Made by a program: the position numbers and the translations under genes. DNA of 63,794 nucleotides, taken from contig JACQPH010000126.1 of the NCBI GenBank assembly GCA_016207645.1, positions 1 through 63,794 of the forward strand, written 5' to 3'. The notes beneath the pieces were generated by a model. It was not told the DNA's origin, did not search any database, and saw only the letters and a list, made by a program, of their open reading frames with translations. Origin of the DNA: Elusimicrobiota bacterium (GTDB taxonomy: Bacteria > Elusimicrobiota > Elusimicrobia > Elusimicrobiales > UBA9959). Shown here one piece after another: positions 50,943 to 54,675 of the stretch (position 1 is the first letter of the stretch; the number at the start of each line of letters is the position of its first letter).

Positions 50943-50974
50943 GCCGCCGGCTGGGGGAGAACTTCCGCAAAATA

Positions 50975-50983
50975 TGCTATAAC
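50975..50983 (+). promoter_or_regulatory. extended -10 promoter of bacterioferritin
   Basis: TGCTATAAC (TG at 50975-50976 before TATAAC) is an extended -10. The predicted leader of about 50 bases ends with GAGAGGTG before the ATG at 51042. Confidence 0.5.
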
Positions 50984-51041
50984 AGACCCATGGGGCGGGT
51001 CGTACGACTATTCAGCTAATCAATAACGAGAGGTGAAATCA

Positions 51042-51512
51042 ATGAAAGGGAATGTTGAACTCATAAAGACGATGAATTCTCTGCTGGCCGACGAACTGAC
51101 GGCCATAAACCAGTACATAGTGCATGCGGAGATGAACGCCAACTGGGGCTACGAAAAGCTGCACAAGCATTTCGAGAAGCGCGCCATCACGGAAATGAAG
51201 CACGCCTCCAAGCTGATCGGGCGCATACTCTTCCTCGAGGGGATACCCACGGTCAGCCTGCTCAGGAAGATCTCGATAGGTTCCGACGTGACCAAGCAGC
51301 TGGCCAACGACCACGCCGCCGAGGCGGGCGCGGTAAAGTCCTACAACGAAGCCATAATCCAGGCCGGAGAGGTCAAGGATCACGCCACCCGCGATATGCT
51401 GCAGGCTATCCTCAACGACGAGGACGGCCACATCGACGGGATAGAGGAGCTGCAGGACCAGGTCGGGCAGATGACCCTGCCGGTATTCCTCGCCACCCAG
51501 GTGAAGGAATAG
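51042..51512 (+). CDS. bfr: bacterioferritin
   Basis: A 156-residue four-helix iron store. With the start at 51042 the ferroxidase ligands fall at the canonical positions Glu18, Glu51, His54, Glu94, Glu127 and His130, and the heme-binding Met is Met52. A GTG nine bases upstream would shift the numbering, so the ATG is preferred; GAGAGGTG serves as Shine-Dalgarno. Twenty-four subunits oxidise and store iron as ferrihydrite. The gene stands alone. Confidence 0.96.
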   Translation: MKGNVELIKTMNSLLADELTAINQYIVHAEMNANWGYEKLHKHFEKRAITEMKHASKLIGRILFLEGIPTVSLLRKISIGSDVTKQLANDHAAEAGAVKSYNEAIIQAGEVKDHATRDMLQAILNDEDGHIDGIEELQDQVGQMTLPVFLATQVKE

Positions 51513-51606
51513 AAGACCGAACCTAACAACTTTCCGGCTTGCGTACGCAGCGGAGCTTTTTCGGGCTTCCGGGCGACGGCGCGGCCGATATCCGCCGATT
51601 TTTAGG

Positions 51607-51612
51607 TATAAT
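51607..51612 (+). promoter_or_regulatory. -10 box (TATAAT) of the secreted protease cassette
   Basis: Consensus TATAAT; the leader is about 27 bases and contains AGGGGAG before the ATG at 51646. No convincing -35 is visible, so an activator may be needed. Confidence 0.5.
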
Positions 51613-51645
51613 TGTCGTGTAGTCACTTTAAACAGGGGAGATCAA

Positions 51646-52425
51646 ATGAAAAAACTAGTTATTCTCGCCGTCCTGGCGTCCATGCTGCCGCTGTCGGCTC
51701 ATTGCCAGGAAACGGCTTCGGCCTTCAGCAAGGCCGAGATAGACGCCGCCCAGGCGGACCCGCTGCGCTATACCTTGGACCCGGAATCCGTCACCGTGGA
51801 ACTCATCTCGGTCAGCGCTCCCGCGGCGCGGGAAGAGCGCGGCGTGATAGGCGGCATCATCACCATCATCAATATCGCCAACAAGATCTGGGGCGTCATA
51901 AAGGACAATGTCCCGGTGGTGGAAGTGGAGACCAAGTACGCGGCGGCCGTCCCCGAGGGCGCCGCCTCGCCCAACCAGCTTTATGAATGGAAAGGGCCTT
52001 CCACCTACGAATACAAGCTCCGCGCCAAGAACCTGTACGGCGCCGAGACCGTGTCCGTGGTCTACAAGGTGGTCTTCTCCTACGGCGGCAAGTTCGACGG
52101 CAAGGGCCGCTACCTGACCGGCGTGACCATAGTGCCCGGCGCGGTGAACGTGAGCTGGGGCTACAAGCTGGGCATGGCCGCTTTCGTGCCCGACACCACC
52201 ATCACCAATCTCGGCACCTACGAGGACCCCCTGGCGGCGATGCAGCTGAAGCTGTCCACCAAGATAGCCAGTGTGCTCAAGGAATGGAACGGCAACAGCG
52301 TCTACCTTATAAGGGGCGACGGCGCCATGAAGGAAATAGTCAGCCCCTTTCCCGCCGCCGCGAAGGCCGGCGATACCGCCGTCTCCGCGCAGCTGCTCGA
52401 CCCGGCCGCCGTGTTCGCGCGCTAA
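51646..52425 (+). CDS. secreted cassette protein 1 (paralogue of 52439)
   Basis: 259 residues with a signal peptide (residues 1-19, ending AHC-Q). Beyond a 50-residue variable N-terminus there is a hydrophobic IGGIITIINIANKIWGVIKD helix. The core has VPVVEVETKYAAAVP, QLYEWKGPS, GKGRYLTGVTIVPG, a WGYKL tract, a VPDTTITNLG tract and RGDGAMKEI. The same order occurs in the next protein, so they are paralogues. I know no family name. The gene starts the operon ahead of the clostripain protease and is 13 bp from the next gene. A substrate, inhibitor or partner role is inferred only from position. Confidence 0.75.
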   Translation: MKKLVILAVLASMLPLSAHCQETASAFSKAEIDAAQADPLRYTLDPESVTVELISVSAPAAREERGVIGGIITIINIANKIWGVIKDNVPVVEVETKYAAAVPEGAASPNQLYEWKGPSTYEYKLRAKNLYGAETVSVVYKVVFSYGGKFDGKGRYLTGVTIVPGAVNVSWGYKLGMAAFVPDTTITNLGTYEDPLAAMQLKLSTKIASVLKEWNGNSVYLIRGDGAMKEIVSPFPAAAKAGDTAVSAQLLDPAAVFAR

Positions 52426-52438
52426 TGAGGAATATAAG

Positions 52439-53191
52439 ATGAAAGCATCTATCAAACTGCTGCTCGCGGCGGCGCTGCTGCTGCCCGCCGTCGGAGCGAC
52501 GGCGCGGGAGGCCGCCGTCATAGACGAGGCCTCCCTGATGATAATCCCGGCCGAGCCCGGCGCCGCGGCGCTGCTCCGGCCTTCCGCCTCCGGCGACGGC
52601 CCGCTGGACCAGCTCAAGGACATAGTGAACCTGGCGATGAAGATCTACAAGATCATCATGAAGAACCGGCCGGTGGTGAACATAGAGACCGACTATTCCA
52701 ACGCCGTGCCCGCGGCGGCGACCCACTGGACGCAGCTGACCGGCTGGCAGGGCCCGGAGTCGAAGCTCTACACCTTCAAGGCTGATAATGTCGGCGGCCT
52801 GCCGGCCGTCACCGCCGCCTATAAGGTGCATTATGTCTGGGGCGGCAGCTTCCGCGGGAAGGGGAAGTACCTGACCGGCGTGACCATAGAGCCCGTCAGC
52901 ATAACCACGGCCTGGGGCTGCAAGCTGGACGTGGACGCCGACGTGCCCGACGCCTCGATAGTTAATGTCGGCAGCGCCGAGGCCCCCCTGGCGCAGATGG
53001 ACGTGAGGATCAATTGGCACCTCAAGACCTTCACCCAGCACATCGAACATGAGTCCGTCTACCGCGTGCGCGGCGACGGGGCGCTCCAGGAAATGGGCGT
53101 GCTGTTCTCGCGCGGCCGCGAGGCGCTCAAGCTGGAAGCCGCGGAGCGGGCCGTGAAAAGCTCCGGCTTATACGCGGAGGTGGCGAAATGA
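52439..53191 (+). CDS. secreted cassette protein 2 (paralogue of 51646)
   Basis: 250 residues with a signal peptide (residues 1-22, ending VGATA). It shares with the protein at 51646 the amphipathic helix, NRPVVNIETDYSNAVP, QLTGWQGPE, GKGKYLTGVTIEP, a WGCKL tract, VPDASIVNVG and VYRVRGDGALQEM. The overall identity is moderate, so the duplication is not recent. Its stop overlaps the protease start by 4 bp (ATGA), which ties expression of the two tightly. A regulatory or substrate relation to the protease is likely but unproven. Confidence 0.75.
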   Translation: MKASIKLLLAAALLLPAVGATAREAAVIDEASLMIIPAEPGAAALLRPSASGDGPLDQLKDIVNLAMKIYKIIMKNRPVVNIETDYSNAVPAAATHWTQLTGWQGPESKLYTFKADNVGGLPAVTAAYKVHYVWGGSFRGKGKYLTGVTIEPVSITTAWGCKLDVDADVPDASIVNVGSAEAPLAQMDVRINWHLKTFTQHIEHESVYRVRGDGALQEMGVLFSRGREALKLEAAERAVKSSGLYAEVAK

Positions 53192-54561
53192 AGAATATCC
53201 TTATAGCGGCGCTGCTGCTGGCGCCCGCGGCGGCTTCGGCGCAGGGCTTCGACCTGAACTCGGTCTCCGCCGGCGCCGTGGCTTCCTATTCCGAACTGGC
53301 GGGCGCCCCGGCCCTGCCCGAGGCGTCGAAGGACGGCCTCAAGGACTGGACCGTCATGGTGTTCATGAACGCCAAGAACAACCTCGACGACAGCCTGCTC
53401 TACGGCATCTCCGGCAAATGGGCGCAGAAGGACATCAAGGAGATGCAGAAGGTGGGCACCACCGGCAAGGTGAACGTGCTGCTGGAATACGGCATGAGCG
53501 GCCAGGGCTCGAAGCGCGTGCGCGTGGAGAAGGACGGCGAGACGCTGTTCTCCGCCGACCCCGCCGGCGACATGGGCGACTACAAGCGCGTGATAGACTT
53601 CGTGAAATGGGCCAAGACCGAATATCCGGCGAAGCGCTATATGCTGGTGCTGTGGAACCACGGTATCGGCTGGATAGACCCGGTGATAAAGAACTACGCC
53701 GACGGCTCGGTGCCGGTCTCCAAGGGCATCCTGTTCGACGACGAGACCAAGAACTATGTCCGCACGCGGCAGCTGGGCGAGATCCTGCGCCAGGCCGGCT
53801 ACGTGGACGTGTTCGTGCAGAACGCCTGCCTGCAGCAGATGGCCGAGATCGGCTACGAGGTGAAGGACGGCGCGGGACTGATGGTGGGCTCCGAGGAGAC
53901 GATGCTGGCCTACGGCTATGATTACACCAAGCTGCTGAACTTCCTCAACGCCAGCCCCGGCGCCAGCCTCGAGCAGGTCAGCGACTTCTTCATCAACTGG
54001 GAGAAGGATTTCTTCGCCCACGGCGCGCCGATAATCGGCCCGATAAACATCCCGCTGTCCGCCATAGCGGCGACGATGTCCGCGGTGCGGCCGCAGGCCC
54101 TCGGCGACCTGCCGCCCTACCTGGACGCCTTCGCGAAGGCCGCGATGAAGAACAACGAGACCGAGGCCGTGAAGTACGCCATCGAGAACGCCGTGCGCTT
54201 CTCCAGCCTGGACCCGAAGAACGACAAGAAGAAGCACATCGCCCCCTACGTCGACCTCTACGACTTCGCCAAGACCTTCAGCATGGTCTGCGGCTTCGAG
54301 ACGGCGCAGGCGGCCGAGCGGCTGATGAAATTCATAAGGACCAAGGTGGTAGTGGGCAATGTCGGCCTGAACAAGGACGCCGTGAACGGCTACGACTATA
54401 CGAAAGTGGGCGGCATAGCCATCGGCATGACCATGAAGGCGAAGCCCCTGCCGCCCGGGCTCGGCAACCTGTACGAGACCAAGTACGGCGACCTGTCGCT
54501 GTCGAAGGCCTCCCAGTGGGACGAGTTCGTGGCCTGGGCCGACAAGGCCTGGCTTAAGTAA
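53188..54561 (+). CDS. secreted clostripain-family cysteine protease (C11)
   Basis: 457 residues with a signal peptide (MKNILIAALLLAPAAASAQ). The caspase-like fold of clostripain is shown by WTVMVFMNAKNNLDD, catalytic His158 in LVLWNHGIGW and Cys214 in VQNACLQQMAEI. Clostripains cleave after Arg/Lys and are made as zymogens; the 30-residue segment after the signal peptide could be a propeptide. It is last in a three-gene cassette, coupled by ATGA to paralogue 2, and ends at a strong terminator. Confidence 0.9.
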   Translation: MKNILIAALLLAPAAASAQGFDLNSVSAGAVASYSELAGAPALPEASKDGLKDWTVMVFMNAKNNLDDSLLYGISGKWAQKDIKEMQKVGTTGKVNVLLEYGMSGQGSKRVRVEKDGETLFSADPAGDMGDYKRVIDFVKWAKTEYPAKRYMLVLWNHGIGWIDPVIKNYADGSVPVSKGILFDDETKNYVRTRQLGEILRQAGYVDVFVQNACLQQMAEIGYEVKDGAGLMVGSEETMLAYGYDYTKLLNFLNASPGASLEQVSDFFINWEKDFFAHGAPIIGPINIPLSAIAATMSAVRPQALGDLPPYLDAFAKAAMKNNETEAVKYAIENAVRFSSLDPKNDKKKHIAPYVDLYDFAKTFSMVCGFETAQAAERLMKFIRTKVVVGNVGLNKDAVNGYDYTKVGGIAIGMTMKAKPLPPGLGNLYETKYGDLSLSKASQWDEFVAWADKAWLK

Positions 54562-54579
54562 CACCGCCTGCGGTCATAA

Positions 54580-54615
54580 GGAGCCCGTCCTGAAGCGGAC
54601 GGGTTCCTTTTTTTT
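54580..54615 (+). terminator. intrinsic terminator of the protease cassette
   Basis: GGAGCCCGTCC (54580-54590) pairs with GGACGGGTTCC with one mismatch, followed by T8. Confidence 0.85.
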
Positions 54616-54675
54616 GGTGCCCGGCAGACGGTATGCCGCGCGGCGGTCCCCCTTATATTGTAAAATTCTAATTAT

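Follow-up and report, generated by a model that had tools for sequence, protein, structure and literature searches.

Exported proteins that are activated by C11 peptidases have been reported from Bacteroidota; they include both parts of a two-component CDCL pair as well as BcpT (PMC11169675; PMC9308784). In the CDCL pair, a C11 surface peptidase activates both components by a cut near the N-terminus, and the parts then assemble (PMC11169675). As for the C11 peptidases themselves, PmC11 cleaves itself after Lys147, and its Asp177 (Asp229 in clostripain) has been described as the main S1 residue, with Asp207 as a further one (PMC4850288).

Herein, we describe a three-gene cassette that resembles the two-component CDCL system (PMC11169675) in that two predicted secreted paralogues are encoded side by side. 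It differs in that the C11 gene belongs to the same unit, while the gene for the C11 that activates the CDCL pair lies elsewhere, even in the genome of the target cell. The cassette lies in a stretch of Elusimicrobiota DNA of 63,794 nucleotides, referred to as a whole as the window; coordinates are those of the window, and all features given with them are on its forward (+) strand. Gene A (51646-52425) codes for an exported paralogue of clade A (P0001, 259 aa), gene B (52439-53191) for an exported paralogue of clade B (P0002, 250 aa), and the third gene (53188-54561) for a peptidase of the clostripain family (P0003, 457 aa). In a pairwise alignment, A and B share 42% identity over 166 aa (1e-46). 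Genes A and B are 13 bp apart and the C11 gene starts inside the last codons of B with an ATGA overlap, just as had been read from the sequence alone. A Shine-Dalgarno-like AGGGGAG (51634-51640) can be read upstream of gene A, as can a possible -10 box, TATAAT (51607-51612), 33 bp before the first ATG; a sigma-70 scan called no full promoter at this box. The cassette is closed by a strong intrinsic terminator with a 13-pair stem followed by a T run (54578-54609). On inspection, the N-termini of all three proteins look like signal peptides with a signal-peptidase-I-like end. The predicted signal peptide of A (residues 1-20, 51646-51705) ends in A-H-C↓Q, and the cassette orthologues retain such an A-x-C/S↓Q-like end. 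Values of dN/dS between orthologues range from 0.07 to 0.48 for all three genes, where computable, which marks them as real genes maintained by purifying selection.

P0003 matches PF03415 at 6.4e-35 (121.8 bits, cut-off 25.8), over profile positions 10-356 of 359. With PmC11, fragipain and clostripain it shares the fold family, the His/Cys dyad, the basic end of loop L5 and an export signal. The catalytic residues His158 (53659-53661) and Cys214 (53827-53829), conserved in all seven cassettes described below, line up with the dyad in every intact C11. The sequence-only reading of the locus as two secreted paralogues and a C11 protease with an intact His158/Cys214 pair is therefore in agreement with the gene coordinates, the profile match and the dyad alignment. 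Loop L5 ends in [KR]-G at Lys179 (53722-53724), which occupies the usual C11 self-activation position (Lys147 in PmC11); nearly every C11 has an L5 loop that terminates in [KR]-G or [KR]-A. The S1 pocket, on which the sequence-only reading was silent, is different, as Asn212 (53821-53823) replaces the S1 aspartate, and Tyr242 (53911-53913), in the substrate-binding loop, replaces PmC11 Asp207. These replacements mark a subfamily of 27 C11s, composed of the seven cassette enzymes and 20 core relatives at 54-64% identity, which come from the same bacterial family and are not located beside A/B genes. Within this subfamily, the dyad is kept in 27/27 and [KR][GA] at the end of L5 in 7/7 cassette C11s and 20/20 core relatives. 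The S1 position is Asn in 27/27, compared with Asp in 50 of the 51 other C11s that these genomes encode (not counting antisense reading frames), and the Asp207 position is taken by Tyr in the seven cassette C11s and by Tyr or Gln in the 20 others. The 27 Asn-type C11s form one clade in the C11 tree (100/100), with the cassette C11s as one clade inside it (100/99). Because the S1 aspartate is gone, we file the cassette enzyme as a C11 peptidase but not as an Arg/Lys-specific one of the clostripain type, and the two changed positions imply that its specificity should differ from that of PmC11 and clostripain. Since the dyad and the basic L5 residue are kept while the S1 residues are changed, the alignments suggest that the cassette C11 probably retains activity, with an altered P1 preference.

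Paralogues A and B are members of an undescribed exported family that is widespread in Elusimicrobiota, a membership that had escaped the sequence-only reading. The earlier statement that they belong to no known family holds for Pfam, NCBIfam, PHROGs and PADLOC, none of which gave a family match; a few weak Pfam hits of single family members look like chance or coiled-coil matches. The family profile produced a single weak hit against PDB sequences (E 0.09), and a phage or plasmid origin was rejected, as no relatives were found in viral contigs or plasmids. We define the family by a signal peptide, an amphipathic helix with I-x-N-x-x-x-K, a YLTGVT-type core and an xGDG end, and A and B fall within it both in the 125-member alignment and in the tree. 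The motifs VVxxET, GKG-YLTGVTI and RGDGA, noticed in the sequence-only reading, do occur in both proteins, but the RGD is not a family feature: the respective columns read xGDG/xGNG. An integrin-like role of RGDGA was likewise discarded, the motif not being conserved even among the seven cassettes.

The family is present in 56 of 101 relatives and in 74 of 295 genomes of the phylum, most of them named Elusimicrobia or Elusimicrobiota in public records. Its tree (78 members) is composed of two old clades, A and B, and the gene order is A then B wherever the pair exists. The usual, or core, A-B pair stands alone between two genes that we take, from reading their sequences, to be those for PFOR and, in convergent orientation, DnaJ; the window's own genome carries such a core pair too (locus L097). 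This core locus is like the cassette in having the same two-clade pair, order and domain plan, and unlike it in having no C11 within 10 kb, longer linkers and no [ED][KR]G motif. Endonuclease-I-like exported genes recur at up to 10 kb from the core pair (loci L143-L183), and tandem arrays of three or four family genes are found in some genomes (L118, L126 and L127). Four distant members (L207-L210) come from MAGs of Bdellovibrio and Bacteriovoracales, lineages known for predatory bacteria.

AlphaFold2 models of A and B (mean pLDDT 83.9 and 84.2, from alignments of 125 and 99 members, respectively) have the same order of strands and the same layout: first comes an N-terminal strand, next a linker of low confidence that contains a helix, and last a body of long antiparallel strands, which in A spans residues about 90-235 (51913-52350; pLDDT mostly >90). 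The helix is amphipathic, conserved and the segment of highest hydrophobic moment in each protein (A: residues 65-82, RGVIGGIITIINIANKIW, 51838-51891; B: residues 56-76, 52604-52666). Despite the low model confidence, I74, N76 and K80 of the A helix are nearly invariant in the family, as might be expected of a part that stays disordered until it joins a complex or meets a membrane. Foldseek returned no match at E<=0.001 for either model in the PDB or for the A model among viral models (BFVD). Recurring weak hits of B to LptE and CsgG (TM-scores about 0.16) were not used, and we gave up a likeness to animal actinoporins, in which an amphipathic helix precedes a beta body, as the searches turned up no fold of this type.

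Across the 74 named loci, the window and L097, a C11 gene lies beside an A-B pair in exactly seven loci, namely, in the window and in L137-L142. None of the other named A/B loci has a C11 in the surrounding 10 kb, or as far as the contig extends. Of 20 additional loci, taken from other families of the class, a single one shows a C11 gene roughly 3 kb off, on the opposite strand; one more A/B-family member has a C11 5.7 kb away. In total, C11 adjoins the pair in 7/7 loci of one derived A-B subclade, versus two distant C11s near about 95 other family loci. The seven cassette A proteins are monophyletic (100/100), and so are the seven cassette B proteins (100/100). Such a topology, combined with adjacency in all seven, indicates that the link with C11 has a single origin, in a derived A-B copy, and persists in all seven known descendants; given this shared descent, the seven cases are not seven independent events. 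Pairwise distances correlate at 0.96 for B and C11 and at 0.85 for A and C11. Moreover, the cassette B and C11 trees have an identical branching order, and the A tree differs at one weakly supported fork. The core C11 subfamily is seen only in genomes with A-B, but many genomes have A-B without a core C11, so we did not take this co-occurrence to prove a link.

Except for the close pair L137/L140, the neighbour genes of the seven cassette loci are unrelated. In the window, the cassette forms part of a segment (50943-54675) that also holds a ferritin-like gene (51033-51512), and the two genes flanking this segment are neighbours in relatives: in four of them, they are only 45-104 bp apart, the insertion site being empty. 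Thus, the 3.7-kb segment was most simply inserted here. The site is bordered by the gene for a 569-aa membrane protein without a Pfam family and by a tandem of two GGDEF genes, of which it adjoins the first; at the same spot (L299-L308), G018 has a different 2.2-kb insert and G027 a small methyltransferase-like gene. None of the other six cassettes has the ferritin gene beside it. Altogether, the unrelated flanks and the empty site in relatives suggest that the trio travels as a unit.

Its internal arrangement is less rigid. The ATGA overlap of B and C11, from which coupled translation had been proposed, recurs in four of the seven cassettes and is not universal: in L138, the C11 gene follows after a 21-bp gap, and in L141 and L142 it is convergent, 21 and 76 bp from B, and hence not co-transcribed with the pair there. 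Changes of location and of gene orientation have not split the trio, though it does not always form a single operon. That the cassette is a true unit, but a derived one, is well supported. The earlier proposal of a functional unit thus stands for one subclade, on the strength of adjacency, unrelated flanks, an empty site and near-congruent trees, and does not extend to a general rule. The wide occurrence of such paralogues without a neighbouring C11, which that proposal had named as speaking against it, is a fact for the family as a whole and not for the cassette subfamily.

What, then, might the peptidase do for the pair? The main reason to prefer a dedicated substrate over an inhibitor or chaperone, all of which were among the roles first suggested together with that of an activator, is a motif gained in the linker of A. 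In the window, this is E64-R65-G66 (51835-51843), at the edge of the low-confidence region of the model (residues 66-82). The form [E/D]-[R/K]-G is found immediately before the helix in 7/7 cassette A proteins versus 1/116 other family members, a contrast whose p-value is overstated given the shared descent of the cassettes; the linker is otherwise variable; none of the B proteins of the seven cassettes has an [ED][KR]G motif. It has the same [KR]-G/A form as the end of the C11 self-activation loop. To judge from motif conservation, A looks like it gained, along with its linked C11, a site resembling the C11 self-cleavage site, in the flexible linker, where a cut after R65 would release the conserved helix. 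We therefore consider processing of A by the linked C11, with subsequent A-B assembly, the most likely mechanism, while holding it tentatively, with somewhat less than even confidence. According to this scenario, A and B would belong as partners to an old, paired system of exported proteins, whose ancestral form works without a linked peptidase, and the C11 would be their dedicated processing enzyme. A duplicated A-B pair and a duplicated C11 would have become linked and would now move together. After export, cleavage within its own L5 loop would free the C11, which would then cut the flexible linker of A after Arg65 (E-R↓G), separating the N-terminal strand from the amphipathic helix and the beta body. 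The freed helix would allow A to assemble with B, either in the periplasm or outside the cell.

The lost S1 aspartate sits uneasily with this scenario: Asn in 27/27 speaks against a cut after Arg65, unless another acidic residue or another C11 of the cell takes over. Either some other residue reads the arginine, or a different cellular C11 makes the cut, or the motif has another use. The convergent C11 genes of L141 and L142 and the lack of a matching motif in B also count against the scenario. In the first alternative to be weighed, A and B form a complex for binding or docking, either on the cell surface or released, with the C11 as an enzyme delivered alongside, so that all three act on an outside target and neither A nor B needs to be cleaved. 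All three proteins are predicted to be exported and are kept together, the A-B pair exists without C11 and so must have a job of its own, and a changed S1 pocket fits a new substrate better than the old Arg/Lys one. Nonetheless, joint action on an outside target leaves the gain of the E/D-R/K-G motif in cassette A unexplained, and we regard it as unlikely, if worth keeping in mind.

Tight packing, with the ATGA overlap in 4/7 cassettes, could also mean that A, B or both inhibit or fold the C11, or hold it until export. Protease-inhibitor gene pairs are common in bacteria, and in staphopain-staphostatin operons, too, small genes are packed against a cysteine protease gene. However, staphostatins and the known partners of that kind stay in the cytoplasm, whereas A and B carry predicted export signals, are paralogous to each other and mostly occur without a protease. 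In a protease-inhibitor operon, inhibitor genes are found with the protease gene, while most of the A/B family has no adjacent C11. The A-B pair is far older and more widely distributed than its link with C11, standing alone in most genomes, and most C11s of the same subfamily have no A/B gene beside them. An inhibitor or chaperone role is thus less favoured than that of a substrate, and we find it rather improbable. We have similar doubts about mere linkage, in which a copy of the A-B pair and one of a C11 gene would happen to share an accessory island and travel side by side without acting on each other, although the single origin of the cassettes, the unrelated ferritin gene in the window's insert and the other inserts taken up by the same intergenic site would all agree with it. 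The ferritin gene is missing beside the other six cassettes, where A, B and C11 persist; the adjacency outlived a switch in orientation as well as several moves to new surroundings; and the distances of both A and B correlate with those of C11.

Returning to the processing of A by its own C11, it would make the cassette a self-contained version of the C11-activated paralogue pairs reported from Bacteroidota. The proteins themselves are not CDCL members, as A and B have neither a CDC/MACPF family match in Pfam nor a fold match in the PDB at E<=0.001, and the cassette C11 lacks the S1 Asp. It is tempting to go further and to suppose that A and B make up an exported two-component system of a new class, without structural match, in Elusimicrobiota and Bacteriovoracales, in which a freed amphipathic helix would drive assembly on or in membranes and the cassette would carry its own arming C11 with a rebuilt S1 pocket; this is a long shot. 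Even so, an undescribed exported family from a poorly known phylum, reaching into Bacteriovoracales, gains a genetic partner here, and with it a first handle on its job.

The C11 branch deserves attention in its own right. Having lost the presumed Arg/Lys-specificity residue and kept the dyad, it makes the link between this residue and specificity directly testable. Outside the Asn subfamily, the sole other C11 seen without the S1 Asp is one of the window genome (L006, C64), which has Met at this position. Finally, C11 peptidases are unusually expanded in the relatives of the window genome (G001-G058), where a single genome can have as many as 18 of them.
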